Shown here one piece after another: positions 41,425-61,734 of a DNA stretch of 64,000 nt. The stretch lies in assembly GCA_018268465.1 (NCBI GenBank), contig JAFDWN010000015.1, positions 128,889 to 192,888 on the forward strand, written 5' to 3'. This stretch comes from Actinomycetota bacterium. Its GTDB lineage: Bacteria > Actinomycetota > Actinomycetes > Mycobacteriales > Mycobacteriaceae. Positions within the stretch are counted from its first letter, which is position 1, and every line of letters starts with the position of its first letter. Made by a program: the position numbers and the translations under genes. A model generated the notes under the pieces. The model saw only the letters and a program-made list of their open reading frames with translations. It was not told the DNA's origin and searched no databases.

Positions 41425-41448
41425 TCGATCCGTGCGGCGGGCCGCCCC

Positions 41449-41454
41449 TACCGT
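41449..41454 (+). promoter_or_regulatory. -10 box of the reducing PKS
   Basis: TACCGT 24 bases downstream of the palindrome. No good -35 hexamer is present (TCGATC region), as expected for an activator-dependent promoter. Predicted start of transcription is about 41461. Confidence 0.4.
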
Positions 41455-41490
41455 TCCTTCAACCGTCAGTTGCGACCGGACCGAAGGAAC
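41453..41490 (+). promoter_or_regulatory. Inverted repeat covering the PKS ribosome binding site
   Basis: GTTCCTTC (41453-41460) is exactly complementary to GAAGGAAC (41483-41490), which contains the AAGGA ribosome site of the PKS gene. In an RNA that starts upstream of 41453 this would hide the site. If transcription starts at 41461 the first arm is missing and the hairpin does not form. Confidence 0.4.
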
Positions 41491-41495
41491 CTGCT

Positions 41496-44400: not shown

Positions 44401-47400
44401 GCGGCACCGCGTGCTCCATCGAAGACCTCGAACTGAAGTCCGCTGTGCCGCTTCAGGCGGAATCGCCGGCGCGGCTGGCCGTGTCGATCACGGCGGATAC
44501 CTCGGTGGTGTCCATCCATCAGGAGAGCGACGACGCCGCACCGGTGTTGTGTGCCAGGGGCCGGGTCTTTTCGGCGGGACGGGTACCCGACGCCGTCGAC
44601 ATCGCGGTGTTGCACGCCCGCCTCGCCGAGGACATGGCCGCCGATACGTTGTACGCGGCCCTCGCCAAACGGTCCCTGCGGTACGGACCGCGGTTCCAGG
44701 CGGTCCGGTCCGTGCGGCGCACCACCGGCGAGGTCCTGGCCACCCTTGAACTTCCCGAAGGCGTGGAGTCCGACGGCTATCACCTGCACCCCGTGCTTCT
44801 GGACGGGGCGTTCCACAGCCTGATGGCGTCGGTCGACGACGGGCCGCGGCAGGACCTGATCCCGGTCAGGATCGGTCGGATCCACTACTTCGGCGCAGGG
44901 TTGCCGGTGGCGTACAGCCACGGCCGAATCGTGCACGCCGACACCGGCAGCGTGACCGGCGACATCACCCTACTCGCCGCGGACGGCACCGTCGTCGCCG
45001 AGATCACCGGCTTCACCTGCCGGTTACTGCCCCGGGCCCCGCGTCTCGACCAGCACCGGCGGCGACTGCACACGCGCAGGTGGCTGCCCCTCGAGGAGGT
45101 CGCGATCGCCCCGACCACGTGGCTGACCATCGCGGCCGGTGACACCGATTCGACCGTGTTGGAGGAGCTTTCGGGATGCACCGAGCCCGTGGCGATTCTC
45201 GATCTGCGGTGGGCGTCGGCGCCGGCGCAAGACTCCGCACCCGTGCAGGCGGGGACGTCGGCGGTCGAACAACTTCTACACACCGTGCGATCGCTGCCCG
45301 CCGACACCGTCACCCGCTACTTCGTGGTGACCAGGGGCGCCGAGGTGCTCGACGGCGATTCCCACGAACCGGCGATCGATCGTGCACTGCTGCACGGCTT
45401 CTGCCGCACGCTGATCTCGGAACGCTTCGACCTGGCCGTCACGCTCGTCGACGTCGACGGACCGGTGGACACCGCCGAATTGCCGGGTCTGCTGCAGCGG
45501 GTCGGCGCCGAGCAGGAGATCGCGCTGCGCGCCGGCCGACTGTACTGCGCGAGGGTCGACCGCGTCCCGGCGCCGAATCCGGACGAGTCCCCGCACCTCG
45601 CCGCCGTCCCGGTGTCTTCCGCGCCGGCGTACGCCCTGGCCGGCGGCGTCACGGGAAGCCTTGAGAACATGGCATTCTCGGTTGCCGAACGCGGCGACGT
45701 GGATGTGGACGAGGTGGAGATCGACGTCGATCTGGCACCACTGAACTACAAGGATGTGCTCAAGGCGATGGGTCTGGTCTCCGACCGGATCATGCAGGAC
45801 ACCTTCTCCGGTGCCGCGCTCGGCATGGAGGTGGTGGGCCGGATCTCCCGGGTCGGCAGCGCCGTGACCGCCCTGCGACGCGGCGATCGCGTCTACGCCC
45901 TGTGTCCCGACGCCATCCGATCCCATGCGATCGTCCCCGCCTCGCGCGCATTCGCGTTACCGGAATCGGTGCCGTCCGAGGCGAGCGCGGGTGTCCTCGC
46001 AATGGTCACCGCCTACCACGGCCTGGTCAAGCTGGCCGGCTTGCAGAGGGGTGAGACCGTGCTCATCCACGGCGCCACCGGCGGCGTGGGGCTCGCCGCG
46101 GTCGCGTTGGCGAAGTGGATCGGTGCGGAGGTCATCGCCACCGCCGGATCGCCGGAGAAGCGCGATCACCTGCGGTCATCGGGCATCGAGCGGGTATCGG
46201 CGTCGCGCGACGTCACATTCGCCGACGACGTCATGGCCTGGACGCAGGGGCGTGGCGTGGATGTGGTGCTCAACTTCTCCCCCGGCGAACTGATGACGAA
46301 AAGCGTGGCCTGCCTCGCGCCGTTCGGCCGCTTCATCGAGATCGGCAAGATGAGCGCGGAACAGGACACCGCGCTGGGGCTGCGACCGTTCAACGAGAAC
46401 CTGATCTTCGCGTCGGTCGACCTCGATCGGCTGATGGCGAGCAGACCCGACTACGTCTGCCGCCTCTGCGACGAAGTGCTCACGCTGATCGCCGAGAAGA
46501 AGGTCGAGCCGATTCCGGTGACCGTCTTCCCCGCCGGCCGCATCGAGGAGGCGTTCCGGCTGATGGCCCGGTCGATGCACATGGGCAAGGTCTGCGTGGA
46601 TATCCACGATCCGCAGCTAACCCTGCTCGGCCGCTCACCGCGACGCATCCGCCAGGACGCGACCTACCTGGTGACCGGTGGCCTGGGCGGGTTCGGACTG
46701 GAAACCGCCAAATGGCTCGCCGACGAGGGGGCGCGGCACCTCGCGCTGGTCAGCAGGCGGGGCGCAACGGCCACCGAGGCCCGCGAAACGATCCGGCATC
46801 TGCAGGTGCGGGGGGTGGACGTGCGCGTGTTCGCCGCCGACGTGGGCAACCGGGACGATATCGCCGCGGTCCTCGGCGATATCGCCGCGACGATGCCGCC
46901 GCTGCGCGGGGTCATTCACAGCGCCGCGGTGTTGGACGACCGACGAATAGCCGACCTCGATCGCGACGCCCTCGACCGGGTGCTGGGCCCCAAGGCCCAA
47001 GGTGCGATGAACCTACACACCCTCACGCGCGACCTGGATTTCTTCGTGCTGTACTCATCGATCTCGTCGCTGTTCGGCAACCCGGGGCAGGGCAACTACG
47101 TCGCCGCCAACTCCGTACTCGACGCACTGGGCACACTGCGCCGCCGCCGCGGGCTGCCCGCATCGGTGATCCAGTGGGGGGTGCTGGGCGAAACGGGGAT
47201 CGTCGCACGCGACGCCAACACCGCCAGGCACCTCGAACACATGGGGCTCACTGCCATCAGCATCGACGATGCGCTACTGGCGCTGGGTGAGGTGCTTCAG
47301 CACGACATCGACCGCCTCACGCTCATGGAAGCCGACTGGCCGCGGTTTGCGGCGGCCCTGCCCGCCATGGCGGGCAGGTGCAGGGTCGCCCTGCTCGCCG

Positions 47401-47738
47401 ACGCCGAGCACGGCGGTGACGCCAACGGCGGGGCCACGGTGATCGACCTGTTCGCCGGGTTGGCCGACGAAGCCCGCCGTGAGCGCATCACCGCCCTTCT
47501 CGGCGAGATCATCGCCGGGGTCATGGGCATGGACGAGCCGGACTTCCCGCTCTCGCAGCCCCTGCACGAGGTCGGACTGGATTCGATCATGGCGCTCGAG
47601 ATCGCCGCCGGAATCGAAACCAAACTCGGACTTCGGCTCTCCGCGGTCGAATTGGCGATGGGGCCGTCGGTCGAACAGCTTGCCGACATCATCCTCGGCC
47701 GGTTGTCCGGTCCGGCAACACAGGAACGCGCCGCGTAG
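41496..47738 (+). CDS. Fully reducing type I polyketide synthase (KS-AT-DH-ER-KR-ACP)
   Basis: A 2080-residue single-module PKS. Domains in order: ketosynthase (about 20-455; DTACSSS with Cys197, VEAHGTGT, KTNFGHTEAASG), acyltransferase (about 550-850; GHSVGE with Ser647), dehydratase (about 910-1190; HxxxGxxxxP with His943), enoyl reductase (about 1400-1700; NADPH loop GATGGVG at about 1526), ketoreductase (about 1715-1895; TGGLGGFG, Tyr1868) and ACP (Ser2030 in GLDSIM). All catalytic residues seen are intact, so it can fully reduce each added unit and probably works iteratively to make a saturated chain. The AT has VPYHS in place of the usual malonyl (AFHS) or methylmalonyl (YASH) signature. 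No thioesterase. It has its own regulated promoter. Confidence 0.94.
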   Translation: MTSPRPLTSVSATPHAADAPARDPIAIVGIGCRLPGGITDAGEFWRALLEGRDCVVDIPGSRWDPRKFLDPSGRSPGRSYVQKAGMLRHDPREFDPSFFGIPPREAAIMDPQQRMLLQCAWEAFEDAGEPPSRHAGARTGVFVGGFMMDHLTLNSDLQNRFRLGTHAPTAGTLTMLSNRLSYLLDLRGPSVSIDTACSSSMVALHQACQSIWSGESDAALVGGANALLSPTTHVTMAKGRFLSRTGRCQAFSANADGYVRAEGAAVLLVKPLAAARRDGNTVHAIVLGTAANSDGRTNGITVPNGDAQIAVMRTAYAQAGVAPSDVTYVEAHGTGTPVGDPVEARAIGAVVGPNRADGPCRIGSVKTNFGHTEAASGVAGVIKAALCLKYGVVPPHLHLTAVNPAIDLDALNLTIPTEPTPLPRLNGRRVAGVNSFGYGGTNAHVVLAEPPEDICGSPGADAPETPATTGPEPVLVISARSAGALHDLAARHADVLSDSAVEVTAHCRSAAVHRSHHRLRASFPAADRSLLLESLQNYSQESAEAVEPALDSPKVLFVYTGMGPQWWAMGRQLLQTEDVFRSTVLECDKAFRAVSGWSILDELCADENTSKMDRTEVAQPANTVLQIALTRLWQSWGVRPDGVLGHSVGELGAAFGANALSLEETMRVVYHRSRLQATLAGRGSMLAVGLDPDEAEACAQRAGVSVAAVNSTTSVTLAGERAALETIAAELAAAGRFNRMLQVEVPYHSAAMADIKDELVASLGDVRHAAPTVEVYSTALGARLSGARHDVGYWWQNARGTVRFADALKAAVSDGYRVFLEIGPHPVLGAAIRDVLGEVGAKGVRIASLTRGAPESATMRSAFGALYAVGAPIDWEAYFGPGSYVPLPKYPWQNTCLWEENERARLARVQSDRHPMVADVEPGAPRRLISDLSFGAMPYLEDHHAAGTVLFPGSGYVELALAAHADLTGGTACSIEDLELKSAVPLQAESPARLAVSITADTSVVSIHQESDDAAPVLCARGRVFSAGRVPDAVDIAVLHARLAEDMAADTLYAALAKRSLRYGPRFQAVRSVRRTTGEVLATLELPEGVESDGYHLHPVLLDGAFHSLMASVDDGPRQDLIPVRIGRIHYFGAGLPVAYSHGRIVHADTGSVTGDITLLAADGTVVAEITGFTCRLLPRAPRLDQHRRRLHTRRWLPLEEVAIAPTTWLTIAAGDTDSTVLEELSGCTEPVAILDLRWASAPAQDSAPVQAGTSAVEQLLHTVRSLPADTVTRYFVVTRGAEVLDGDSHEPAIDRALLHGFCRTLISERFDLAVTLVDVDGPVDTAELPGLLQRVGAEQEIALRAGRLYCARVDRVPAPNPDESPHLAAVPVSSAPAYALAGGVTGSLENMAFSVAERGDVDVDEVEIDVDLAPLNYKDVLKAMGLVSDRIMQDTFSGAALGMEVVGRISRVGSAVTALRRGDRVYALCPDAIRSHAIVPASRAFALPESVPSEASAGVLAMVTAYHGLVKLAGLQRGETVLIHGATGGVGLAAVALAKWIGAEVIATAGSPEKRDHLRSSGIERVSASRDVTFADDVMAWTQGRGVDVVLNFSPGELMTKSVACLAPFGRFIEIGKMSAEQDTALGLRPFNENLIFASVDLDRLMASRPDYVCRLCDEVLTLIAEKKVEPIPVTVFPAGRIEEAFRLMARSMHMGKVCVDIHDPQLTLLGRSPRRIRQDATYLVTGGLGGFGLETAKWLADEGARHLALVSRRGATATEARETIRHLQVRGVDVRVFAADVGNRDDIAAVLGDIAATMPPLRGVIHSAAVLDDRRIADLDRDALDRVLGPKAQGAMNLHTLTRDLDFFVLYSSISSLFGNPGQGNYVAANSVLDALGTLRRRRGLPASVIQWGVLGETGIVARDANTARHLEHMGLTAISIDDALLALGEVLQHDIDRLTLMEADWPRFAAALPAMAGRCRVALLADAEHGGDANGGATVIDLFAGLADEARRERITALLGEIIAGVMGMDEPDFPLSQPLHEVGLDSIMALEIAAGIETKLGLRLSAVELAMGPSVEQLADIILGRLSGPATQERAA

Positions 47739-47927: not shown

Positions 47928-48716
47928 TCAGGCGGACCAGCCCAGCGCTGCCAACTCCAGTGAGGAATCGTGGCGCAGGATGAGCTGGTGCTGGCGTTGC
48001 AGGGCCGGACCCGGCTCCACTCCGAGCCCGTCGACGAGCGTGTCCCGGGTGCGCCGGAAGACACTCAACGCTTCGACCTGACGACCCGATCGGTAGAGCG
48101 CGATCATGTACAGCTGTACGAGGCGCTCGCGGACGGGCTGGGCCGTGGTGAGCATCTTGAGTTCAGATGTGACCTCACGGTGTCTGCCGCAGGCCAGTTC
48201 GGCGGCGAAGCAGTCCTCGTAGGCGCTGATCCTCTCGTCCTCGACCGCCGCGAGTTCCGGCCAGTGACCGGCCGATTCGGCGAGGTCGGCCAGCGCACGC
48301 CCGCGCCATAGATCAAGACCCCGGCGCAGCTGGTCGCGCGCGGCGTCCGGCCGGCCCGCGTCGAGCTCGGCACGGCCCTGTGCGACGAACCGGCGGAACA
48401 CGTTCACGTCCACGGTGTCGTGGTCGACGTGGAGCTGGTAACCGGGCGCCTGAGTGATCAGCGCGGCGCCGCCGGTGTGCGCGGCGAGCATCTTGCGGAT
48501 CGCCGCCACTGAATTGTGCACCATCTTGCGGGCGGTGAACGGCGGGCAGTCCTGCCAGATCGCGGAGAGGATCTCGCCGTTGGACACCACCCTGCCCGAA
48601 TTGAGCAGCAGATACGCCAATACGGATCGCTGCGTCACACCCCCGGCGGGGATGGTCGTGCCGTTGTCGGAGATCTTGATCGTTCCCAGCACCGAGAACT
48701 GGATGCCACACTCCAT
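47928..48716 (-). CDS. SARP-family transcriptional activator
   Basis: A 262-residue Streptomyces antibiotic regulatory protein. Residues about 5-95 are an OmpR-type winged helix (FSVLGTIKISDN, RSVLAYLLLNSGRVVSNGEILSAIW, APGYQLHV), and about 100-250 are the bacterial transcriptional activation domain (FRRFVAQGRAEL, RERLVQLYMIALYRSGRQVEALSVFRRTRDTL). There is no ATPase or sensor domain, so it is a small pathway-specific type. The ATG at 48716 is preferred; a GTG three codons earlier is possible. It is the likely activator of the lipid locus: a SARP-type direct repeat stands before the acyl-CoA ligase gene. Its own promoter carries the shared palindrome. Confidence 0.92.
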   Translation of the reverse strand: MECGIQFSVLGTIKISDNGTTIPAGGVTQRSVLAYLLLNSGRVVSNGEILSAIWQDCPPFTARKMVHNSVAAIRKMLAAHTGGAALITQAPGYQLHVDHDTVDVNVFRRFVAQGRAELDAGRPDAARDQLRRGLDLWRGRALADLAESAGHWPELAAVEDERISAYEDCFAAELACGRHREVTSELKMLTTAQPVRERLVQLYMIALYRSGRQVEALSVFRRTRDTLVDGLGVEPGPALQRQHQLILRHDSSLELAALGWSA

Positions 48717-48821
48717 GTCTTCCACCCCGTGTCACTCGTCCGAGTCTGTGGCACCGTCACCCGACACGCTCGTGTCGACCGAGGCGGCCTCGCTCCGGAG
48801 GTGGGTGCCGATACGACGCCA

Positions 48822-48991: not shown

Positions 48992-51022
48992 TCATGCCGC
49001 GGATTCCCGGTCGTCCGCGGCGACGTTCGTCGCCAGGTGGCGCGCCAGTGCTCCGATCGTCGGGTGGTCCCAGGCGAGCAGCGCCGGCACCGGCGCGCCG
49101 ATCCAATCGCCGAGCCGCGCCATCATGTCGACCGCGTCGACCGAACGCAGCCCCAGCGCCGCGAACGGCGCTGCGCTGTCGACATTCTCCGGATCCATCC
49201 CGGATCGGCTGGCGACCAGATCGACCAGCCACGCCTCGATCTGCTCCGCGGTCACGACACCGTCCGGACGCGGCGGATCGTGGCGCCGCCGATGGGCTGC
49301 GGGGTCCAGAACCGGGGTGCGCGATTCGAACAGCACGTCGAATTCGCCGGCACGCAGCATGCTGCGAGTCTCGGCGCGCCGGATCTTTCCGCTCGACGTC
49401 TTCGGGATCTGGCCCGCCGGGATCAGGGTCACCGCGCAGATCGCCAGTCCGTGCTCGGTGGCGATCGCCCGATGCAGCGCCGCGGCGGCTTCGGCGAGGT
49501 CGCCGTTCCAGTTCGGACGGACCTCGTGCACGAAGGCGATCCGTTCACCCTCGTCGTCGGGGGACGCCGGGTCGCGCAGATCCACCGCGGCAGCGCAGCC
49601 GGGGCGCAGCGCCGGATGGCTGCTCTCGGCGGTGTATTCGAGATCCTGGGGGTACACGTTCCGTCCGCGCACGATGATCACATCCTTGCGACGTCCGGCG
49701 ACGTAGAGCTCGCCGCCGTGGAGAAAACCCAGATCCCCGGTGCGCAGATACGCCGCGTCGGCGCCGGCCAGCCGGGCGCCGAAGCTCTCCGCGGTCTCCA
49801 CCGGACGGTTCCAGTAGCCGTGGCCCACGCTGGTGCCGGCGACCCAGATCTCACCAACCGTGCCGGGAGCGCACTGGGTGCCCGAACCCGGCTCGACGAT
49901 GACGACCTCCTGACCGTCGAGCGCCGTGCCGGCACTCACGATCGGGATACCGCCGTCGGATTCGCCGCGTTCGACGGCGCGGCCGTGCCCGAGTACGAGC
50001 GGGTCGAACGCCGTGATCCGCGGCGGCACGCCCGTCTGACCGGACGATACGCACAGCCCCTCGGCGAGGCCGTAGAGGCTCAACGCCGCCGAGGCGCGGA
50101 AACCCGCGTCCGCGAACGTGGCGGCGAAGCGCGCCAACGTGTCCGGGCGCACCGGCTCGGCGGCGTTGCCCGCGACCTTCCAGCAGCTGAGGTCCAGTTC
50201 GGCGCGTTGTTCGGCGGTGGTCTTGCGAGCGCAGAGGTCATAGGCGAAATTGGGGGCGGCACTCGCCGACGCCCGGAACCGCGAGATGGCCTGCACCCAC
50301 CGGGCCGGCCGGCTGAGGAAATCGATCGGCGACATCAAGGTGATCGGGTTACGTCCGAACACCGGCTGCAGAATGCCGAAGAACAGTCCGTAGTCGTGGT
50401 ACTGCGGCAGCCAGCTGAGCAGGCGAACCCCGGGCGCGACGAGGCGCGCGGCAGTGGCGTTGCCGCAGTGCATAAGATTTCCGTGGGTGAGGACGGCGCC
50501 CTTGGGTGCAGACGTCGAACCGGATGTGTACTGCAGGAACGCGATGCTGTCCGGCGTGAGGCGCGGTGGACGCCAGTCGGAGGCGCGGTCATCGGGTGTC
50601 TCGTCGGTGACCAGCCAGCTCAACCGACCCAGTGCCGGCTCGATGGCGATGATCACGTCCCGGCCGGCGATGATCTGCCGGTTGGTCAGGGCGACCTCGA
50701 TCGACGCGTCGCCGATGATGTTGGTCAGCTGCGAGACCGAACGGTTCAGCGTGGGCGGATACGCGGGTACGGCGATGACGCCCGCGTAGAGGCACGCGTA
50801 GAAGGCGACGACGTAGTCGAGTCCGGGCGGGTAGATCAACAGGACACGCTGCCCCGCCAGGCCGAGGTCCTGCATCTGAGCGGCGATGGCCCGGGCGCGT
50901 AAGTCCAGCTCCGCCCAGGTGAGCTGGGCGACCTCGGTCTCGCCGTCGACGAGGTAGGTGTAAAGGGCCTCGTCGCCGCAGTCCTGCGCTCCCCTGCGGG
51001 CGAGGTCGACGTAGGTGTTCAT
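48992..51022 (-). CDS. Fatty acyl-AMP ligase fused to an acyl carrier protein
   Basis: A 676-residue protein. Residues about 1-560 are an adenylate-forming ligase of the FAAL type: YTSGSTSAPKGAV (P-loop), SWLPQYHDYGLFFGIL, the FAAL-typical CWKVAGNAAEPVR, YLRTGDLGF and KDVIIVRGRNVYPQDLE. FAALs activate fatty acids as acyl-AMP and load them on PKS carrier proteins instead of CoA. Residues about 590-665 are an ACP with the phosphopantetheine Ser627 in ALGLRSVDAV, so the ligase probably loads its own carrier. It overlaps the oxidoreductase gene by 4 bp and is the last gene of the operon. It should provide the starter chain for the KS-AT-ACP synthase. Confidence 0.92.
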   Translation of the reverse strand: MNTYVDLARRGAQDCGDEALYTYLVDGETEVAQLTWAELDLRARAIAAQMQDLGLAGQRVLLIYPPGLDYVVAFYACLYAGVIAVPAYPPTLNRSVSQLTNIIGDASIEVALTNRQIIAGRDVIIAIEPALGRLSWLVTDETPDDRASDWRPPRLTPDSIAFLQYTSGSTSAPKGAVLTHGNLMHCGNATAARLVAPGVRLLSWLPQYHDYGLFFGILQPVFGRNPITLMSPIDFLSRPARWVQAISRFRASASAAPNFAYDLCARKTTAEQRAELDLSCWKVAGNAAEPVRPDTLARFAATFADAGFRASAALSLYGLAEGLCVSSGQTGVPPRITAFDPLVLGHGRAVERGESDGGIPIVSAGTALDGQEVVIVEPGSGTQCAPGTVGEIWVAGTSVGHGYWNRPVETAESFGARLAGADAAYLRTGDLGFLHGGELYVAGRRKDVIIVRGRNVYPQDLEYTAESSHPALRPGCAAAVDLRDPASPDDEGERIAFVHEVRPNWNGDLAEAAAALHRAIATEHGLAICAVTLIPAGQIPKTSSGKIRRAETRSMLRAGEFDVLFESRTPVLDPAAHRRRHDPPRPDGVVTAEQIEAWLVDLVASRSGMDPENVDSAAPFAALGLRSVDAVDMMARLGDWIGAPVPALLAWDHPTIGALARHLATNVAADDRESAA

Positions 51023-52380
51023 GATGCCGGGGCTCCCATCCAGCTCGGTGCCGAAACATGCTGCAGGAGACGCTGTGCGGCCAGTCGACCCGAGCGGAAG
51101 CAGGCTTCCAGCGGCGCCCCCATGAGGTAATCTCCGGCCAGTTCGATGCCGGGTGTCGCGGCGACGTGGCCGGCCAGCTCGGTCAGGAACTCACCGTAGA
51201 ACGGCAGATAGGCGCAGTACGCCGCGGGCCACACCCGCGTCCGGACGTTGACGCGGTTGAGCGGTCCGGTGCCGAGCAGCTCGGTGACCGCTCCCTCGGC
51301 GTCGTCGAGCCAGGAGCTCAGCTGTCCGGCTGACGGCGCGGGCCGCGCGTCGCGCCCACTGAAGGTGTACCGGACGACGTTGCGGTCATGGACGCCGTAC
51401 ACCCCGATATTGCTGCACGGACCCCCGTCCACGGCGATGGCACGGACCACGGTGTCGAACACGGGACGGTCGTACTCGACCACCGCGACCGCGGCGGGAA
51501 AGTACCGCACCCGCGCCAGCTGTCGGCTCAGTTCGGGGAGCGCCGATCCGGCGATCTCGGCGGCCGCGTAGGCGGGCGTGGCCAGCACCACCCCGGCGTA
51601 GGCGACCGGTCGCGGTGCTTCACCGTTGCGCGACACCTCGATACCCTGCACCCGGCCGTCCCCGACGAGGAGACTGTCGACCCGCGAATCCAGTTGTACG
51701 GATACGTATTCCGCCAACCTGTCGAGGGCGGGCCGGATGCTTCCGACGAGCTGGTCGAAGGTTCCGGCGATGCCGAGGTTCACACCGAGGTTGCCCAGGT
51801 ACATCTCGTCGGGCTCGGCGCCGTTCATCCGTACCGTCAGCGCCCGGAACATGTTGTTCACCAGGTCCGGCCCGAAGTACGCGGTGAGTGGCCGGTGGTC
51901 GTGCGCCGAACCGATCCTGGTGAACGCCTTCGATCCGAGGTACCGATTGCCCTCGTCGCGGCGCACCTTGGCCAGCAGCCACGACAGTCGCACGAGATCT
52001 CTCGGCGAGCCCAGCTTGGTGATCTTCCTCAGCAGATCCAGCCGGTTGTTCGTGCTGTCGAAGGTGATCAGCTTGCCGTGCACGATGCGTGAGGTATTGA
52101 CCCCGAAGTATTCGAAGTCGCCGGCTCCCATCGCGGCCAGGAAGGCCCGAAGCTCGGTATAGCTGCGACCGATGTTCTTGCCGCCCATCATGATCGGACG
52201 CTCGCCGAGTCGATCCACGCCGAGCCGTCCGCCGAGCACACCGTCGGATTCGATGAGATCGACGGGGTAGCCCGCGGCGCGCAGATGGTAGGCCGCGGCG
52301 ATACCCGCCATGCCGCCGCCGACGACCGCGAGCCGCGAGGCGCCGTCGGACTGCGGGCTGTCTGGAGTGCCTCTGGTCAT
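51019..52380 (-). CDS. FAD-dependent oxidoreductase (amine oxidase/phytoene desaturase-like)
   Basis: A 453-residue flavoprotein. The N-terminus LAVVGGGMAGIAAAYHLRAAGYPVDLIES is an FAD-binding Rossmann fold with the following GG doublet (VLGGRLG), and the C-terminal IELAGDYLMGAPLEACFRSGRLAA closes the FAD site, as in protoporphyrinogen oxidase, phytoene desaturase and related enzymes. Substrate is unknown; in this operon it may oxidise or desaturate the acyl product or its lactone. It overlaps both neighbours by 4 bp (ATGA at each end), so it belongs to the same pathway. Confidence 0.88.
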   Translation of the reverse strand: MTRGTPDSPQSDGASRLAVVGGGMAGIAAAYHLRAAGYPVDLIESDGVLGGRLGVDRLGERPIMMGGKNIGRSYTELRAFLAAMGAGDFEYFGVNTSRIVHGKLITFDSTNNRLDLLRKITKLGSPRDLVRLSWLLAKVRRDEGNRYLGSKAFTRIGSAHDHRPLTAYFGPDLVNNMFRALTVRMNGAEPDEMYLGNLGVNLGIAGTFDQLVGSIRPALDRLAEYVSVQLDSRVDSLLVGDGRVQGIEVSRNGEAPRPVAYAGVVLATPAYAAAEIAGSALPELSRQLARVRYFPAAVAVVEYDRPVFDTVVRAIAVDGGPCSNIGVYGVHDRNVVRYTFSGRDARPAPSAGQLSSWLDDAEGAVTELLGTGPLNRVNVRTRVWPAAYCAYLPFYGEFLTELAGHVAATPGIELAGDYLMGAPLEACFRSGRLAAQRLLQHVSAPSWMGAPAS

Positions 52381-53375
52381 GCCGACTCCTGTTCGTCGTG
52401 TTCGGAAACCTGGGGATGCGGTGACAGCTCGAGGCTGCACAGGCCGATGCGCTGGCCGAACTGGTAGGCGGCGAGTTCGACGGTGGCGCCACCGGAGTCG
52501 GGATCGGCGAATACGGCGGCCGAGAATCCGACCGGCGGGCCCAGTTCGGCGAACCCGTCGAATGTCATCGCGCACGATGTCAGCGCGACGACGGGCGAGT
52601 CGAGCACCTCCGCGTCCACCGCCGCGAGAATCGCCGCCTGACGGCACCCCTCGAGCAGCAGCGGCCCGGGCACATGGTCGTAGGGGTGGTCGAAGAACGC
52701 TGGGTGGCGCTGATCGACCACCAGCGGGATGAGCGCCGTCCCGTCGGGTCCGCAACGCACCGGCTCGGCTCCCACGACAACGTTGCGGCGATCGGTCCGG
52801 CCCACCGTGGCGGGATGTGCCCGTTCGACGTCGGCGTGGTCGCCGGCGTTGTCGGCGGGCCGGGTGGCCTGCTGGTGTATGCGCAGCTGCCGGTACACAT
52901 CGGCGGGGAAATGCGCGCCGCGGCCCCGAATGGTCAGGGCGAGGGACCCTTCGATGGTCAGCGACGCGTCGAAGGACGACTCGCCGACGCACAGATGGCT
53001 GCTCGGCGGTGGCGTCAGGCGGATGCGTGCGATGCCCTCCAGCGGGACGTTACGGGCATCCCGAAACGCACTGATGTCCTCGACGGTGACCTCGATGCTC
53101 TGCAGGCTCACCGGGGTTCCGGCCGGGACACCCAGATACCGGTGCCCCAGCACGATCACCGCCTGCCTGATCGCCTCCACCATCGACAACGGATCGTGGT
53201 ATTCGGCGCAGCGGTCGAACCACAGCAGGTGCGCCCTCGGGATCTGCACCGCGGCAACGTATTCATCAGGACCGGCCTCGGCGGTGTCGGTGACGAAAAC
53301 CTCGCCGATGGCGCGACGGTGCGCGAGCGAACACGGCACCGTGCGCTCGAAACTCAGCATGAGGCTGTCGGTCAT
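52377..53375 (-). CDS. AfsA-family hotdog protein (gamma-butyrolactone synthase-like)
   Basis: A 332-residue protein with two AfsA-type hotdog repeats: residues about 10-150 ([39 protein letters not shown]) and about 185-315 ([30 protein letters not shown]). In Streptomyces AfsA joins a beta-ketoacyl-ACP to dihydroxyacetone phosphate in the first step of A-factor synthesis. Both halves keep the pattern of a Glu within a helix after an H-x-x-D-H/P segment. Position between a KS-AT-ACP synthase and a FAAL-ACP with 4-bp overlaps suggests those enzymes supply its beta-ketoacyl substrate. Whether the acceptor is dihydroxyacetone phosphate cannot be seen. No butyrolactone receptor gene lies in the window. 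Confidence 0.88.
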
Positions 53376-56300
53376 CGTTCGTCCCTTTCGGTTGCTGCGG
53401 TGGCGCTGACCAGGTTTGCGAGTGCGCCGATGGTCGGATTGGCGAGCAGCAGTTCCAGCGGAATCGCCCAGCCGGTCATGCGGTCCAGCCGCGCGCGCAG
53501 TTCCAGGATGGACAACGACGTCAGGCCGGCATCCGAAAGGGTTGCCTCGACGCTGATCTCGCTGTCCACCGCGAGGATCTCCTCGATCTGCGACCGCACC
53601 GCCCCGAGCGCGAAGCCGGCCTTGCCATCCTCGGGCAGCGCAGCGAGTTGCGCCCGGAACGTCTGCGCCGCATCGGGTTGTGGAGCCGGTTCGAACCGCG
53701 GGACCAGTTCGGCCCCGTCGCTCTCGGCGCCGCTCCAGTAAGTCCGGTGGTCGAAGGCGTAGGTGGGCAGGTCGACAACCCCGGCAGCGCGGCCCGCGTA
53801 CACCGCACCCCAGTCCAACTGAGCACCGCGGACCCACGCCGCCGCAACGGCTTTCAGCAGACCGGCGCCTTCCGGTTCGCCACGCCGCAGCGTCGCGACC
53901 GCCGTACCGCCGTTGCCGGCCAGGCACTCGTGGGTCATCCCGGTGAGCACGTCGCCGGGACCCACCTCGACGAAGGTGCGTACCCCGGCAGCGGCCAGGG
54001 CCGCCACGCAATCCCGGAACAGGACGGGTTGCCGCACCTGACTCACCCAGTAGTCGGGTGTGCACAGGTGCTCGCCCCGCGCCGGCTCGCCGGTCACGTT
54101 GGACACCAACGGCACCGTCGAGGGGTGCAGGTCGACTCCCGCCAGGACCCGGCGGTACTCGGGCAGCATGGGATCCAGGTGCGACGAGTGGAATGCCCGG
54201 TCGACCTGCAGGCGTTTGGTATGCCGGCCACGCGTACGCCAGTACTTGGCGACCACGGTCACGCTTTCGTCCTCCCCGGCGACCACGGTCGCATTGGGCC
54301 CGTTGCTCGCCGCGACCGACACGTCGAGGCCGTAGGCGGCCAGCGCTTCGCTGACCTCGGACAGCGACGCCCGGATCGACACCATCGCACCGGGTGGCAA
54401 CTGCTGCATGAGCGCTGCGCGCGCGGCGACGACCGTCGCCGCGTCCTCGAGTGAGAAGACGCCGCCGAAATGTGCGGCGGCCAGTTCGCCGATCGAATGC
54501 CCGACCACGAAGTCCGGTGTCATACCCCATGTTTGGAGAAGTCGCAGCATCGCGACCTCGATCGTGAACAGCGCGGGCTGGGTGTACTCGGTCCGGTTCA
54601 GAAGCTCGGGATCGACGCCGTCGTCCCCGAAGATCACCGACCGCAACCGACGGTCCAGGTGCCGGTCGAACTGCGCACACGCGGCGTCGAACGCTCTGGC
54701 GAACTCGGGATACTCGCCGTAGAGCCGACGGCCCATACCCAGCGCCTGGCTGCCCTGTCCGGGCAGCAGCAACGCGGTCTTACCGCGTGCCGGCGCGCGG
54801 CCGCTGATCACGCACGGAGCGTGCCGGCCCTGCGCCAGCGCGGCCAGGCCTTCGGAAAACTCGGCGCGCGTCGTCGCGATGACCACGGCGCGGTGGGCGA
54901 GTCCGGCGCGGGTGGTGGCCAGCGAGTACCCCACGTCGGCGAGCGTCCCCGCCCCACCGAACGCGCCCAGCCGCCGGGCCTGGGCGCGCAACGCGGATTC
55001 GGTCTTGGCCGACACCACACACGGCAGCGCCGGGTGCTCTTCGGCCGTCCGGTCCGCCGCGGATCGGCCGGATCCGCGGTGCACCGGTTCGAACTCGACG
55101 ATGACGTGGGCATTCGTACCGCTGATGCCGAACGACGAGATACCGGCGCGGCGCGGCTGGTCGCGGTCGGGCCACGGCTGCGACGATTCCGCGACGAGAC
55201 GGATCTGTCCCGCCGTCCAATCAACCTGCGACGACGGCGAATCGACGTGCAGGGTGCGGGGCACCACACCGTGGTGCATCGCCTGCACCATCTTGATCAC
55301 TCCCGCGACGCCTGCCGCGGATTGGGTGTGCCCGATGTTCGACTTGACCGACCCGAGCAGCAGCGGCCGTTCGGGGGGCCGCTGTCCGTACGTGGCGAGG
55401 ATGGCCTGCACCTCGATCGGGTCGCCGAGCACCGTCCCGGTGCCGTGTCCTTCGACGACGTCGACATCGGCGGGCGACAATCCGGCGTTGGCCAGCGCTC
55501 GGCGGATCACCCGTTGTTGCGCCAGCCCGTTCGGCGCCGTCAGCCCGTTGGACGCGCCGTCCTGGTTCACCGCCGAGCCGCGCACGATCGCCGCCACCCG
55601 GTGACCGTTGCGCCGGGCCTGCGAGAGCCGCTCGAGAACGAGCAACCCGACACCTTCTGACCACGCCGTCCCGTCCGCGCCCGACGCGTAGGACTTGCAG
55701 CGGCCGTCAGGGGCCAATCCCCGCTGCTGGGCGAACAGGACGTAGCCGAGCGGCGACACGGTGACGGTCACCCCGCCGGCCAGCGCGAGTGACGATTCAC
55801 CAGACCGCACCGATTGGACCGCCTGATGCAGGGCCACCAGCGACGACGAACACGCCGTGTCCAGCGACACCGCCGCGCCCTCCAACCCGAGGAAATAGGC
55901 GATCCGTCCCGATGCGACGCTGGGCATGTTGCCGGTCAGCAGGTAGCTCTCCGCGCCCTCGACCTCCGCCCCTGATGCCAGCGTGCGGTACCCCATGTCA
56001 CTCACGCCGACGAACACCCCGGTGTCGCTTCCGCGTAACGAACCCGGATCGATGCCCGCCCGCTCGAACGCCTCCCACGCCACCTCGAGCAGCAAACGCT
56101 GCTGTGGATCCATCGCCAGGGCCTCCCGTGCGGACACCCCGAAGAATCCGGCGTCGAACTCCCCTGCACCGTCCAGGAATCCGCCCTCGCGAACATAGGT
56201 CTTGCCGGGCACCCCCGCCTCGGGGTCGTGGATGTCGGCGGGCCAGCCACGATCTCCGGGGAACGGCGACATCACGTCCCGCCCTTCGGCAATGACCCGC

Positions 56301-56395
56301 CACAGGTCCTCCGGCGAGGTCACCCCGCCGGGAAACCGGCACGCCATCCCGATGATGGCCACCGGGTCATCCGCGGCCGGCGTATGCTCACACAT
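53372..56395 (-). CDS. Non-reducing single-module PKS (KS-AT-ACP)
   Basis: A 1007-residue PKS. Ketosynthase about 8-430 (DTACSSS with Cys182, [12 protein letters not shown]), acyltransferase about 520-830 (GHSIGE with Ser634; the AFHS motif in [12 protein letters not shown] predicts malonyl-CoA), ACP about 920-1000 (Ser960 in GLTSLS). There are no reducing domains and no thioesterase, so the expected product is an ACP-bound beta-ketoacyl chain. The segment usually read VEAHGTGT is VEGHGTGT here, a change next to the first catalytic histidine. The ATG at 56395 follows GGGAGA; upstream in-frame ATGs lack homology. It is the first gene of the operon with the AfsA-like, oxidoreductase and FAAL-ACP genes. 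Confidence 0.93.
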
Positions 56396-56637: not shown

Positions 56638-58209
56638 ATGAATGTGTCATCCACCATCGGATCACTGGACGTGCCTGCCGATTTCACGGATTTGATCCGC
56701 GAACACGCGCTCCGCCGGCCCAGCGCCGGCGCCATCGTCTGCGGCCCGAACACCGTCGACTATGCCACGCTCGACCGGGTGTCCAGTCAGATCGCCAACG
56801 CCCTACTCGCCGCAGGTGTGTGTCCCGGTGACCGTATCGCGTACGTCGGGCAGGACTCGGAGATCATCTACGAACTGCTGATCGGCGCGGCCAAATGCGG
56901 GGTGGTGCTGATCCCCGTCAACTGGAGACTGGCCGCCCCCGAGATCGCGCATATCCTGCGGGACTCGCTGTGCCGGCTGGTGTTCGTCGACCCGGTGGCC
57001 GAAAGTGTGCTGGCCCAAGCGCAATCCGAGAACGACAGATCGGTGGACACCGTACCCTTGCCGGCGTTCGCCACGTGGCTTCGAGGCCATCCGGACACCG
57101 ACCCCCACATCGAATCCGGCCCCGACGACCCGTTCCTGCAGCTGTACACCAGCGGCACCACCGGACTTTCCAAGGGTGTCGTGATCGCCCAGCGCAGCAT
57201 CTACGCGGCACGGCAGGCGTTGCTGTCACCGGAGGCGGACTGGCTGGACCTCGGGGCGGACGACCGGATCCTGGTGATGATCCCCAGTTTCCACATCGCC
57301 GGCCTGGGCTGGATCATCCAGGGTCTGTTCTTCGGCGCGACGAATGTCATGCTGCCCGAATTCGGTCCCGCCGCGGCGATGGACGCCATCCGGGCACACG
57401 AGGTGACCGTTCTTGTCGGCGTCCCGGTGATGTTCGCCTTCATCCTCGCCGATCCCACCGCCAACCGGGCGTCACTGTCGACGCTTCGGATGGCCGCCTA
57501 CGGCGGCTCCCCCATTCCGGAAACCCTGCTGGCCCAGTGCATCGAGCGGTTCGGCTGCAAGTTCCTCCAGTTCTACGGCATGACCGAAGCGGCGTGGTGC
57601 ATCACCTACCTGCCCCCGTCGGATCACACCCCGGGCAATCCCCGGCTGCGGTCGGCGGGCCGCGCGGCGCCAGGGGTGGAGCTCGTCGTGCGGGATGCGG
57701 ACGGGAATGCGCTCGCACCCGGGGAGACCGGTGAAATCGTCCTTCGCAGCCCGGCGACGATGGTCTCGTACTGGAACAACCCCGACGCGACCGCGGCCAC
57801 GGTGATCGGCGGCTGGTTGCATACCGGGGACGCCGGCTGGATCGACGAAGACGGTTACCTGTTTCTGTGTGACCGGATCAAGGACATGATCATCGTGTGC
57901 GGTGAGAACGTCTTTCCGGCCGAGGTGGAGAACGCCATCGTGGCCCATCCGGCCGTGCGGGAGGCCGCGGTGATCGGCGTACCGGACGACAAGCGGGGCG
58001 AGGCGGTGCACGCATTCGTGGTCGTGCACCAGGGCCACAGCGTCACCAGCCGTGAGCTGACCCGTTTCCTTCGGGAACGGGTCGCACCGTTCAAGATGCC
58101 GGCCAAGTTCGAGTTCATCGACTATGTCCCGCGCAACGCCACCGGCAAGATCCTTCATCGCCAGCTGCGTGAGGACTTCTGGGCCGGACGCCAGCGGGCG
58201 ATCAACTGA
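56638..58209 (+). CDS. Acyl-CoA synthetase (FadD-type AMP-binding ligase)
   Basis: A 523-residue adenylate-forming ligase. Motifs: LYTSGTTGLSKGV (P-loop), QFYGMTEA, WLHTGDAGWIDEDGYL and PRNATGKILHRQL with the catalytic C-terminal lysine. It lacks the FAAL insertion and the ACP of the other ligase in the locus, so it should form acyl-CoA. It may activate a short or modified acid as starter for the reducing PKS or recycle a product. It is divergent from the PKS operon and has the SARP-type promoter, linking it to the locus. Confidence 0.9.
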   Translation: MNVSSTIGSLDVPADFTDLIREHALRRPSAGAIVCGPNTVDYATLDRVSSQIANALLAAGVCPGDRIAYVGQDSEIIYELLIGAAKCGVVLIPVNWRLAAPEIAHILRDSLCRLVFVDPVAESVLAQAQSENDRSVDTVPLPAFATWLRGHPDTDPHIESGPDDPFLQLYTSGTTGLSKGVVIAQRSIYAARQALLSPEADWLDLGADDRILVMIPSFHIAGLGWIIQGLFFGATNVMLPEFGPAAAMDAIRAHEVTVLVGVPVMFAFILADPTANRASLSTLRMAAYGGSPIPETLLAQCIERFGCKFLQFYGMTEAAWCITYLPPSDHTPGNPRLRSAGRAAPGVELVVRDADGNALAPGETGEIVLRSPATMVSYWNNPDATAATVIGGWLHTGDAGWIDEDGYLFLCDRIKDMIIVCGENVFPAEVENAIVAHPAVREAAVIGVPDDKRGEAVHAFVVVHQGHSVTSRELTRFLRERVAPFKMPAKFEFIDYVPRNATGKILHRQLREDFWAGRQRAIN

Positions 58210-58225: not shown

Positions 58226-59077
58226 TCACTGCGCGAACTCGACGACGGCGTGCCATGGAGTGGCGCTGCGCAGGCCGGGCACGCGGTCCATCACCGGCGT
58301 GGCACAGCCGAACACCACTCCCCGGCCGGCGGGCACCCGGGCGAAGCGGACCGCGGCAACCGCGGGATCGCGCCGCAGCCTTTTGCGGACCGCGGCGAAA
58401 CTCGCGCCCCACGGCATCGGCGGCAGCCGGTAGCCTTGCCCGCCTTCGCGTTTGCCGCGCACGAAGAACGCGTTCTGCACCGTGTTGCCCCGGACCGAGA
58501 TGGTGAAAGCGCGCGGCATCATGTCGAACATCATCGCGGCACCGGGAAAGGCGCGGGCACACCCGAGAATCAGGTCGTAGGCCTCGCTCTCCTGCAGGTA
58601 GAACAGCAAACCCTGGGCGGTGATGAACACCCCGTCGCGGTCCTCGACCGTGGCCATCCATCGAGGATCCAGCGCCGAACAGGCAAGGTTGCGCGAGCGG
58701 TCGGTGCCGGGGAGAAGTCTGTCGCGCAATTCGATCACCTCGGGCAGGTCGATCGACAGCCAGCGCGCCTGACCGTTGTCCAGGCGGGAGAACTGCGTGT
58801 TCAGTCCGTCGGCAAGCGCGACGACGGTGCCGCGCGGGTGGTGCAGCAGGAAACGCCGGACCTGCGCGTCGAAGGACAGTTCGCGCAGCGCGAGCACCTG
58901 GGGCGCCCTGCCGAAGCGCGCCTCGAACGGATAGTCGATCGAATCCAACAGGGCGACCGCCTTGGTATCCCGCAGCCGCGCGTCGGGGCGGCGCGCCTCG
59001 GCGGCGCGGGCATAGAGCGGCCAGAGAAGGGTTTCCGGCACGCCGCTGAGGTTGACGGCGATCGCGTCGTCGCTCAT
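58226..59077 (-). CDS. SAM-dependent methyltransferase, LCMT/PPM-like
   Basis: A 283-residue class I methyltransferase of the leucine carboxyl methyltransferase-like branch common in mycobacteria. The N-terminal DARLRDTKAVALLDSIDYPF, the acidic SAM region TVVALADGLNTQFSRLD followed by WLSIDLPEVIELRDRLLP, and GVFITAQGLLFYLQESE are typical. It may O-methylate an acid or alcohol of the locus product. GAGGAG is seven bases before the ATG. It is convergent with the acyl-CoA ligase gene (16 bases between) and divergent from mmpL across a region with palindromic sites. Confidence 0.87.
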   Translation of the reverse strand: MSDDAIAVNLSGVPETLLWPLYARAAEARRPDARLRDTKAVALLDSIDYPFEARFGRAPQVLALRELSFDAQVRRFLLHHPRGTVVALADGLNTQFSRLDNGQARWLSIDLPEVIELRDRLLPGTDRSRNLACSALDPRWMATVEDRDGVFITAQGLLFYLQESEAYDLILGCARAFPGAAMMFDMMPRAFTISVRGNTVQNAFFVRGKREGGQGYRLPPMPWGASFAAVRKRLRRDPAVAAVRFARVPAGRGVVFGCATPVMDRVPGLRSATPWHAVVEFAQ

Positions 59078-59148
59078 CTGGGCTCCTCGAGGTTGGGTGC
59101 AACACACGTTCAGCCATCGATCATCGTGACCGCCCGGCGCGGCTGCGC

Positions 59149-59164: not shown

Positions 59165-59219
59165 GAATCGGCGATCGATGCCCGCTACGCAGGAGCCTGC
59201 GCGGCGTGTACGGACTGTC

Positions 59220-59235
59220 GAGTAACAAGCTACTC
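59220..59235. promoter_or_regulatory. Palindromic operator upstream of mmpL
   Basis: GAGTAACAAGCTACTC keeps the outer five bases of both arms, and is extended to six by flanking C and G (CGAGTA...TACTCG). It is the third strong copy in the locus, tying the exporter to the reducing PKS and the SARP gene. Confidence 0.55.
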
Positions 59236-59415
59236 GCGACACCGGCCGCCGGACTCACCACACTGAATCTCCACCGGCGCACGAAGGGTCCGCGAAAAGT
59301 ACACGGCCTGTTGCGTTTACGGGATGAACACCATCGCAGATCGACACCTGGGGGTCGCCATGACGCCGCACCGCGTCAGCCCGAGCGCGGGCAGCAACGC
59401 CATGGCGGTCGGGGT

Positions 59416-61734
59416 ATGACCCGCGCGACGCGGACGTCGAGTGGCGGGATCCGGACACCGGTCGCCGAGCCGGGCTGCAGGCCACCGGCCGCCGCCGGAT
59501 CCGACGGCGTGCTGGCGCACATCGCAGCCATGGCGATCCGCGCGCCGCGGCGCATCATCGCGGTCGCGGTGCTGGTCATGATCGGCGCGGCGCTGTTCGG
59601 CGTCCCCGTCACCACCCGTCTGTCGGCGGGTGGTTTCCAGGACCCCACCTCGGAATCGTGGCAGGCCGCCCGGATGCTGTCCGACACCTTCGGCCGCGGC
59701 GATATGCAACTGCTCATCACCGTCACCTCGGACGCCGGTGTGGACAGCGCCCCGGCACGCGACGCGGCCACCGACATCGTCGCCGCGCTGCAGTCCTCCC
59801 CGCATGTGGGGGACGTCAGCTCGGCATGGACCGCGCCGCCACCCCTGGCGCCCGCGCTGGTCAGCAAGGACGGTAAGACCGGGCTGATCGTCGCGGGCGT
59901 GACCGGCGGCGAGAGCGGTGCGCAGCGCAACGCCAAGGCCATCACCGATCGTCTGGTACGCGACCGCGACGGGGTGACGGTGCGGGCCGGCGGTGAAGCC
60001 ATGACGTACGTGCAGATCACCCGCCGCATCGAGATCGACCTGCTGCTCATGGAATCCATCGCGATCCCGCTGAGTTTCGTGGTGTTGGTGTGGGTGTTCG
60101 GCGGTGTCGTCGCCGCCGCGCTGCCGGTGGCGGTCGGCGGGTTCGCCATCCTCGGCTCGATGGCGGTGCTGCGCGCGGTCACCCTCGTCACCGACGTCTC
60201 GATCTTCGCCATGAACCTCACTGTGGCAATGGGTTTGGCCCTGGCCATCGACTACACGCTACTCATCATCAGCCGGTACCGAGACGAACTCGCCGACGGA
60301 TCCGATCCCCGCGCCGCACTTGTCCGCACGATGGCCACCGCGGGCCGCACCGTGCTCTTCTCCGCCGTGACCGTCGCCTTGTCGATGCTGGTGATGGTGC
60401 TCTTCCCGATGTACTTCCTCAAATCATTCGCCTACGCAGGCATCGCGACGGTCGCTTTCGCCGCCACCGCGGCGATCGTGGTGACCCCGGCGGCCATCGC
60501 GCTGCTCGGTATGCGTCTGGACTCCGGGGATGTGCGGCGCCTGGCCCACCGGCTGACCGGCGGGCACGCACCTCGCCCACAACCGGTCCACAAGCAATTC
60601 TGGTATCGGTCAACGACATTCGTGATGCGCCGGGCGGTCACCGTCGGCATCACGATCGTCGTCGTCCTGCTCGTGCTCGGCGCACCGTTCCTCGGTGTGA
60701 AATGGGGCTTTCCCGACGACCGGGTGTTGCCGCAAGGGATGTCGTCGCGTCAGATCGGCGACGAACTGCGCGACGAGTTCGCCGTCGACTCCGCGACCAA
60801 TGTCACCGTCGTCGTCCCCGATACCGCAGGCCTGACCCCGGCGGAGTTGGACCGCTACGCCTCGGAGCTGTCGCAGGTGCCCGACGTGATGTCCGTGTCC
60901 TCCCCCCGGGGCGGCTTCGTCGACGGAATCCTCGCCGGCCCGCCCACGGCGGCCACCGGGGCGGCCGACGGCAGCGTGTACCTCACGGTGGTGAGCGCCG
61001 CGCCGCTGTTCTCCCAGAGGTCGGACACACAGTTGGACCGGCTGCACGCGGTCACGGGACCCGGCGGCCGCGACACCCTGTTCACCGGGGTCGCGCAGAT
61101 CAACCGCGACAGCTCCGAGGCGATTTCGTCCCGGATTCCGCTGGTCCTGGGCGCCATCGCGGTGGTCACGTTCATCCTGCTGTTCCTGCTGACCGGCAGT
61201 CTGGTGTTGCCCCTGAAAGCGTTGGTGCTCAACGTCTTGTCGCTGACGGCGGCGTTCGGCGCGCTGGTGTGGATCTTTCAGGACGGCCATCTCGGCGCAC
61301 TGGGAACGACGGCCACCGGCACGCTGGTGGCCAACGTGCCGGTGCTGCTGTTCTGCATCGCCTTCGGCCTGTCGATGGATTACGAGGTGTTCCTGGTCTC
61401 CAGGATCAGGGAGTACTGGTTGGCCTCACCGCAGGGCCCCGGCGACAACGACGAGAGCGTCGCGCTCGGCCTGGCGCGCACGGCCCGCGTGGTGACCGCC
61501 GCCGCGCTGCTCATGACTATCTCGTTCGCGGCGCTGATCGCCTCACACGTTTCGTTCATGCGGATGTTCGGTGTGGGTCTCACCCTTGCCGTATTGGTGG
61601 ACGCGACGCTGGTGCGGATGATGCTGGTACCCGCGTTCATGCACCTCATGGGCCGGTGGAACTGGTGGGCCCCGCGACCGATGGCCCGGTTGCATGCCCG
61701 CCTGGCGATCGGCGAGTCGGGTGACCGGGGGTGA
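59416..61734 (+). CDS. MmpL-family RND lipid transporter
   Basis: A 772-residue RND-type exporter with two halves, each with a long extracytoplasmic loop and a block of transmembrane helices. The proton-relay motifs are AIDYTLLIISRYRDEL with Asp279/Tyr280 and SMDYEVFLVSRIREYW with Asp655/Tyr656. MmpL proteins export lipids made by neighbouring PKS genes, so it most likely carries the product of this locus through the inner membrane. The ATG at 59416 gives the usual short cytoplasmic N-terminus before the first helix (about residues 45-62); no clear ribosome site is seen. There is no MmpS partner nearby. Confidence 0.92.
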   Translation: MTRATRTSSGGIRTPVAEPGCRPPAAAGSDGVLAHIAAMAIRAPRRIIAVAVLVMIGAALFGVPVTTRLSAGGFQDPTSESWQAARMLSDTFGRGDMQLLITVTSDAGVDSAPARDAATDIVAALQSSPHVGDVSSAWTAPPPLAPALVSKDGKTGLIVAGVTGGESGAQRNAKAITDRLVRDRDGVTVRAGGEAMTYVQITRRIEIDLLLMESIAIPLSFVVLVWVFGGVVAAALPVAVGGFAILGSMAVLRAVTLVTDVSIFAMNLTVAMGLALAIDYTLLIISRYRDELADGSDPRAALVRTMATAGRTVLFSAVTVALSMLVMVLFPMYFLKSFAYAGIATVAFAATAAIVVTPAAIALLGMRLDSGDVRRLAHRLTGGHAPRPQPVHKQFWYRSTTFVMRRAVTVGITIVVVLLVLGAPFLGVKWGFPDDRVLPQGMSSRQIGDELRDEFAVDSATNVTVVVPDTAGLTPAELDRYASELSQVPDVMSVSSPRGGFVDGILAGPPTAATGAADGSVYLTVVSAAPLFSQRSDTQLDRLHAVTGPGGRDTLFTGVAQINRDSSEAISSRIPLVLGAIAVVTFILLFLLTGSLVLPLKALVLNVLSLTAAFGALVWIFQDGHLGALGTTATGTLVANVPVLLFCIAFGLSMDYEVFLVSRIREYWLASPQGPGDNDESVALGLARTARVVTAAALLMTISFAALIASHVSFMRMFGVGLTLAVLVDATLVRMMLVPAFMHLMGRWNWWAPRPMARLHARLAIGESGDRG

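Follow-up and report, generated by a model that had tools for sequence, protein, structure and literature searches.

What does a mycobacterium make with an operon that sets a fatty acid-activating ligase, a single polyketide synthase (PKS) module and an AfsA-family enzyme side by side? The question is raised by four genes within a 64,000-nucleotide stretch of an Actinomycetota bacterium of the family Mycobacteriaceae (assembly GCA_018268465.1, contig JAFDWN010000015.1, positions 128,889 to 192,888), referred to here as the window. All four are on the minus strand, arranged one behind the other, and encode, in this order, a PKS of 1007 amino acids (aa) with an ATG start and the domains ketosynthase, acyltransferase and acyl carrier protein (KS-AT-ACP; 53372..56395), an AfsA-like double-hotdog protein of 332 aa, which we propose as a phosphorylated butenolide synthase (PBS; 52377..53375), an FAD-dependent enzyme of 453 aa (51019..52380), and a fatty acyl-AMP ligase of 676 aa that carries its own C-terminal ACP (FAAL-ACP; 48992..51022). 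An earlier note on this DNA had described a four-gene operon coupled by 4-bp overlaps, which holds with one correction of wording, as four genes give three overlaps (53372-53375, 52377-52380 and 51019-51022); its account of a PKS without reducing domains, an AfsA-family protein, a flavin enzyme and a ligase-ACP was confirmed by Pfam domains. The base composition of the four genes (67.8-70.1% G+C, 84-86% at the third codon position) resembles that of their neighbours.

We consider it probable that the operon encodes a small assembly line that primes itself and makes a lipid with a butenolide head group. The FAAL would adenylate a fatty acid and load it onto its own ACP; the KS would take the chain over and add one C2 unit from malonyl, leaving a beta-ketoacyl-ACP, which the AfsA-like enzyme would release by condensation with dihydroxyacetone phosphate (DHAP) to give a 2-acyl-3-(phosphooxymethyl)butenolide. 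Less certain are the further steps, in which the FAD enzyme may oxidise the butenolide head group, a general phosphatase may remove the phosphate, an MMPL protein may export the product and a SARP-type regulator may switch the cluster on. The release step appears the best supported part of this scheme, the FAD step and the product the least; we infer what the product is, how long its chain is, what the FAD enzyme does and whether a neighbouring reducing PKS takes part. The core of the scheme (FAAL-ACP loading, one non-reducing extension, AfsA condensation with DHAP) had already been put forward in the earlier note, and it gains from conserved motifs, a PKS-neighboured AfsA clade, a one-protein fusion in a deltaproteobacterial genome and two papers on chain release (PMC7756420, PMC7756379).

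The PKS matches the Pfam models for KS (E 2e-92), AT (E 6.3e-53) and a PP-binding domain, and Pfam found no ketoreductase (KR), dehydratase (DH) or enoylreductase (ER) domain in it. The 15-residue KS active-site motif and KSNIGH are kept. The AT bears the motifs GHSIG and RAFH, and by motif rules for these we take it to be of the malonyl type; GHS[IV]G and [AG]FH recur in the nine nearer Nocardia loci inspected, in the terminal module of each. In their translations both ACPs of the operon retain the serine motif (GLTSL and GLRSV). The FAAL-ACP protein in turn has AMP-binding and PP-binding domains in Pfam, and its ligase part scores 389 bits with PRK05850 and 382 bits with FadD32 against 135 for the CoA ligase PRK06187, all of them below the full-protein cut-offs. 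Among solved structures it is matched best by a FAAL domain from a cyanobacterial PKS (7r7f/7r7e/7r7g); 16 solved sequences matched at E<=1e-40, among them 7r7e, 3kxw, 3pbk, 3e53, 3t5a, 8hcz, 5hm3, 5ey9 and 5d6n, which appear in the FAAL table of a review (PMC11837247). Both family scores and structures thus place the ligase nearer to FAAL than to CoA ligases. Matches to FAAL-ACP at E<=1e-120 occur in 31 of 198 same-genus genomes (the window's own counted); identity is 39-45% where the match is an N-terminal or internal part of a large same-genus synthase and reaches 46% with shorter FAAL genes.

That these parts work in sequence is most strongly supported by a single 1972-aa open reading frame (ORF) of a metagenome-assembled genome (MAG: Deltaproteobacteria bacterium isolate M3003; L039, 5012-10930), which reads FAAL-ACP-KS-AT-ACP-AfsA and so joins three of the four window proteins, a FAAL-ACP, one non-reducing module and AfsA, in one chain. 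Pfam recognises AMP-binding, PP-binding, KS, AT and two AfsA stretches in it; the second carrier, with GLTSL between AT and AfsA, was recognised by eye and by blastp (E 4.8e-6, 0.022) and not by Pfam. Among five genomes of its phylum that were searched, its own counted, no second full fusion was found, and the best match (G1019) covers residues 41-1578. In a further locus (L040) a frame open at the contig end matches AT and AfsA by tblastn only. The two AfsA hotdogs of the fusion (L039:10001-10930) stand in reverse order relative to the free-standing proteins, including that of the window.

The release step proposed here has a precedent in Burkholderia gladioli. For gladiofungin, deletion within the AfsA domain abolishes production, and glycerol contributes an intact C3 unit to the molecule; the same paper names Gloeobacter, Paenibacillus and Ruminiclostridium as bearers of other orphan clusters that end in an AfsA domain (PMC7756420). 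For gladiostatin, the ACP-PBS didomain of GdsF is reported to lose its 3-ketobutyryl group in vitro on addition of DHAP and to convert a 3-ketooctanoyl thioester into a butenolide (PMC7756379). The likeness lies in how the chain leaves the PKS: an AfsA-family enzyme frees the beta-ketoacyl group from its ACP with DHAP and forms a butenolide, a step that in the window is predicted. As in those systems, the window's AfsA-like enzyme follows a PKS whose last module should leave a beta-keto group, the KS-AT-ACP without KR, DH or ER lying directly upstream. Their PBS, however, is covalently joined to a large multimodular PKS of the trans-AT kind that has a glutarimide part, whereas the window's AfsA is a separate gene, joined by a 4-bp overlap and standing free behind a single cis-AT module, with FAAL-ACP and an FAD enzyme in the same operon.

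The AfsA-like protein itself matches Pfam AfsA (PF03756) in two stretches (E 1.3e-35; 122.7 bits against a cut-off of 24) and is the sole AfsA protein of its genome. In an alignment of eight sequences, the window's and seven Nocardia relatives, E67, R70, Q71, E242, R245, Q246 and the 11-residue motif F227-G237 are invariant. A Glu and an Arg of such E-x-x-R-Q motifs matter in ScbA. A scan of a named genome collection returned nine loci, seven from Nocardia (46-52% identity), one deltaproteobacterial and one in a Thermoanaerobaculia metagenome genome, and a further relative (46%) stands in a Nonomuraea gerenzanensis record. Across the family, 116 of 401 genomes have a match, and seven full-length matches outside the window's genome are 41-54% identical; across the class 3 of 394 matched at E<=1e-40, the window's own counted. 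Within the genus an AfsA family match occurs in 18 of 297 genomes, and the other proteins fetched are about 29-39% identical, six over only a third of the protein. A phage origin was rejected, the protein having no match in 50,697 phage records.

In a tree of AfsA proteins the window's falls into a clade of 17 rows (support 100/99), and the rows closest to it are L033, L034 and L090 (support 99/96). These 17 rows were picked by similarity to the window's AfsA and their PKS genes were checked afterwards; PKS genes were found in the stretches read for all 17, whereas the nine other rows read over 20 kb as a control (L041, L042, L044, L045, L047, L097, L099, L101, L102) gave no PKS hit at E<=1e-8. 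The tree contains four rows with long branches and was built without L039, for its swapped hotdog order, and without the truncated L040; Nocardia vulneris L038 and L091 are the same genome, counted once, and L091 was left out. A further 14 loci (L076-L089) are represented by some 3.9 kb each.

Within the clade the FAD gene stands directly behind AfsA in 9 of the 17 rows (the window, L033, L034, L035, L036, L037, L090, L092 and L096), and a FAAL gene belongs to the cluster in six (the window, L031, L094 via L110, L095 via L153, L096 via L154, and L106). The stretches read for L032, L033/L156, L034/L157, L038, L090/L108, L092/L155 and L093/L109 showed no FAAL, though several of them end inside PKS genes, while the stretches of L035, L036, L037 and L105 end in or near an upstream PKS. 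In L093 the KS-AT-ACP gene lies about 8 kb from AfsA. The earlier note had proposed looking for the four-gene order in other actinobacteria, and one genome (G559; L096/L154) does unite FAAL, PKS modules, AfsA and FAD, within a longer cluster. The operon is therefore unique not in its composition but in its compactness. The same core of KS-AT-ACP, AfsA and FAD genes recurs in the same order in the Nocardia loci L033, L034, L090 and L092, two of which (L033, L034) also have the SARP and acyl-CoA ligase genes; they differ from the window in additional PKS modules and in the lack of FAAL within their stretches. Three of them also have a second FAD gene (L156:16028-17326, L157:14873-16150, L108:8803-10077), which lies upstream and is 42-44% identical to the window's.

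Several observations weigh against a self-sufficient four-gene line. The functions of its enzymes are predictions. The FAD gene is not behind AfsA in 8 of the 17 clade rows (L031, L032, L038, L093, L094, L095, L105, L106), and none was found among the four ORFs scanned next to the deltaproteobacterial fusion, which encode an amidohydrolase, an acyltransferase and two epimerase-type genes. In the nearest Nocardia clusters (L033/L156, L034/L157, L090/L108, L092/L155) the extra PKS modules and the lack of FAAL in the stretches mean that the terminal module there extends something else, and in the FAAL-bearing L031, L094, L095, L096 and L106 a further PKS module stands between FAAL and the terminal one. 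The AfsA-like protein reaches 183.5 bits with the ScbA/BarX model NF041195, whose cut-off is 200, and its structural model aligns with solved structures at modest TM-scores (0.36-0.55, normalised by query length). The neighbouring ORFs scanned include no phosphatase. Finally, a reducing PKS adjoins the operon and could insert steps.

This last point leads to the strongest competitor, which we regard as rather unlikely: the operon may be the end of a longer line, in which the fully reducing PKS (KS-AT-DH-ER-KR-ACP; 41496..47738, plus strand) first extends a chain that is FAAL-loaded or CoA-activated, so that KS-AT-ACP and AfsA only terminate it. In related Nocardia clusters a reducing PKS does precede KS-AT-ACP and AfsA; the order FAAL, PKS, terminal KS-AT module, AfsA is found in L031, L106, L094/L110 and L095/L153, and the acyl-CoA ligase, which is conserved close to L033 and L034, could provide a different starter. 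The window's reducing PKS, however, is separated from the operon by the SARP gene and read from the opposite strand. It is only 31.5-33% identical over nearly its whole length to the Nocardia reducing modules (L033-L036), while the KS domains of those same modules share 59-61% identity with the KS in the KS-AT-ACP protein of the operon. The best full-length NCBIfam relatives of the window's reducing PKS are PKS_plus_SDR and Pks2, all below their cut-offs, and its membership of the pathway is uncertain. An orthologue was found in just one of 98 genomes at E<=1e-250 (G039; 73% over the N-terminal part, 68% overall); the 40 kb read around it hold no AfsA, FAD or FAAL gene and the genome gave no match to AfsA or FAD in the genus-wide searches, so that the reducing PKS is not supported as a fixed part of the system. 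The fusion in L039, moreover, links FAAL-ACP directly to KS-AT-ACP-AfsA.

The family name also brings to mind gamma-butyrolactone signalling in the style of A-factor, with the product as a hormone that has its own receptor. The sole AfsA protein of the genome and a SARP regulator nearby would suit this idea, and signalling by mycobacteria is treated as an open question in a review (PMC4748050). A-factor and SCB synthesis (AfsA, ScbA) share the enzyme family and presumably the same DHAP condensation. In systems of this type the beta-ketoacyl chain comes from fatty acid synthesis. The window differs from them in having FAAL and PKS genes in the operon, in a score below the ScbA/BarX cut-off and in the lack of a TetR gene seen nearby. 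Such a gene commonly lies 5' of afsA in Streptomyces (PMC3848822); a scan of 28 ORFs, not all of those present, from about 20.7 to 63.7 kb found none of TetR/ArpA type, and a distant receptor is possible. As an MMPL transporter and a dedicated FAAL and PKS also fit a lipid or secondary metabolite, we regard hormone signalling as improbable. The earlier note had left the choice between a butyrolactone- or butenolide-like signal and a lipid undecided; nothing found favours the signal, and the odds of a lipid or secondary metabolite are no lower.

The AlphaFold model of the AfsA-like protein (8 sequences; mean pLDDT 76.5, pTM 0.80) is a double hotdog, in which residues 224-235, part of the conserved motif, fall below a pLDDT of 50. 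The first of the 50 solved matches listed for it is a chain of the trypanosome mitoribosome assembly. A phmmer search of PDB sequences gave no solved AfsA relative (best E 0.9), so that matches of the model to other hotdogs are expected whether or not DHAP is used. A thioesterase- or dehydratase-like hotdog that hydrolyses or dehydrates the chain without DHAP is thus very improbable, since for all that most of the 50 structures are TesB- or FatA-type double-hotdog thioesterases and dehydratases, the sequence family is AfsA and both E-x-x-R-Q motifs and F227-G237 are kept.

Within the proposed butenolide line, the FAD enzyme is the member whose role is hardest to assign, and the earlier note gave it none. 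Pfam places it in Amino_oxidase/NAD_binding_8, and its model (6 sequences, mean pLDDT 78.7) comes nearest to Myxococcus protoporphyrinogen oxidase, rice phytoene desaturase and amine oxidases; by predicted fold, which is one of dehydrogenases and oxidases, and N-terminal FAD-binding region it belongs to this superfamily, and none of 25 NCBIfam models listed for it reached its cut-off. Homologues 50-56% identical stand directly behind afsA in five named Nocardia loci. Among 297 same-genus genomes only the window's own and G229 (44%) have a match at E<=1e-25, both beside afsA. In G229 an AfsA (35%) and an FAD enzyme (44%, opposite strand) occur together with MMPL, SDR and LCM genes (L041, 11773-19999), and the whole 38.6-kb contig (L041/L107) gave no PKS hit; here the AfsA-FAD pair exists without a PKS. 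Because the acyl machinery differs between such loci while the AfsA gene is constant, the FAD enzyme may act on the head group made by AfsA, with less certainty than attaches to the release itself.

A homologue of the FAD enzyme (27.5-27.7%) was also found on eight plasmids of Aliiroseovarius crassostreae, and an AfsA match on eight. On the one plasmid examined (L127:12943-15143), an 'AfsA-related hotdog' gene is followed after 2 bp by the FAD gene, and the region also holds UbiD/UbiX, MMPL and ketosynthase genes. The Aliiroseovarius row lies outside the AfsA clade of the window, with ketosynthase genes some 14 kb off.

We speculate, with rather less confidence than in the assembly line itself, that two wider statements hold together: that the AfsA-FAD pair is a head-group module, for an oxidised butenolide or furan, common to actinobacterial and alphaproteobacterial clusters, and that FAAL-primed, AfsA-released one-module lines form a recurring and undescribed class, present as four genes in a mycobacterium and as one protein in a Deltaproteobacterium.

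How new is such a system? The earlier note knew of no mycobacterial system of this composition, a claim that has to be narrowed, as the release mechanism was already known and relatives with most of the same genes occur in Nocardia and other Actinobacteria; what stands is the compact set. No description of a FAAL-AfsA operon was recognised in the open-licence literature, as judged from titles, abstract starts and passages. The methylenomycin furan operon mmfLHP resembles the window in an AfsA homologue, MmfL, beside a presumed tailoring enzyme, MmfH; it differs in its gene set (mmfL, mmfH, mmfP) and in a substrate proposed to come from fatty acid biosynthesis (PMC6604932, PMC5625687). The cyanobacterial olefin synthase and mycobacterial FAAL-PKS pairs are alike in that a PKS extends a fatty acid which a FAAL has placed on an ACP, and they differ in their release steps, which in the olefin synthase involve KR, sulfotransferase and thioesterase; the words AfsA, butenolide and butyrolactone are absent from the main text of the review in question (PMC11837247). 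Butyrolactone clusters of Rhodococcus are recorded as detected by afsA (PMC5550956, PMC5735094). The parts and the release step are known, then, and the compact combination of FAAL-ACP, one module, AfsA and FAD was not found described.

If the proposed line is right, a mycobacterium would make butenolide-headed lipids from a fatty acid picked by its own ligase and not from the supply of fatty acid synthase. A compact and testable example would be added to AfsA-type chain release, and the AfsA-FAD pair would provide a handle for new head groups in Nocardia, mycobacteria and proteobacteria. Four proteins of ordinary size make the DHAP release directly testable with simple fatty acids.

The operon does not stand alone, and the earlier account had left out the genes around it. 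Downstream lies the SARP-type regulator (47928..48725, minus strand; Pfam), which has a 53-56% identical homologue close to the clusters of L033 and L034; the reducing PKS comes next. Divergent from the operon is an acyl-CoA ligase gene (56638..58209, plus strand; Pfam), whose 52-54% homologue lies near the SARP gene in the same two loci. It is followed by an LCM-family methyltransferase-like gene (58226..59107, minus strand), a weak Pfam match (25.1 bits against 22.3) whose share in the pathway is uncertain, and by the MMPL family transporter (59206..61734, plus strand; Pfam), a possible exporter. LCM and MMPL genes also occur near the AfsA-FAD pair of L041.

To the left of this region are the core genes priA, yhhN, fmt, rsmB, rpe and ribD (Pfam). 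Given an assembly contamination of 5.86%, a contaminant contig was considered and rejected on account of these core genes, PriA being matched in 58 of 59 other same-genus genomes at 71-83% identity. Synteny stops after priA-yhhN in all six relatives read there: 17 window genes tested (32.8-63.7 kb) gave no hit above 70 bits within 20 kb. Because the genes from 32.8 kb onward are missing next to priA-yhhN in these relatives, the operon is assigned to a variable region at least some 30 kb long, a finding that says neither when nor how the region arrived. At 35649-47738, within the same variable region, the MAS/Pks2-like reducing PKS comes after a luciferase-like gene and ABC transporter genes.

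Elsewhere in the genus a different and commoner AfsA locus is found (L042-L052 and L102; for example L044:1715-12962), whose AfsA is about 29-33% identical to the window's. An AMP-binding gene lies about 4 kb from AfsA in 11 of 297 genomes and in G598, and the sole locus of this kind that was annotated (L044) also holds PPDK, SDR, UbiA and glycosyltransferase genes.

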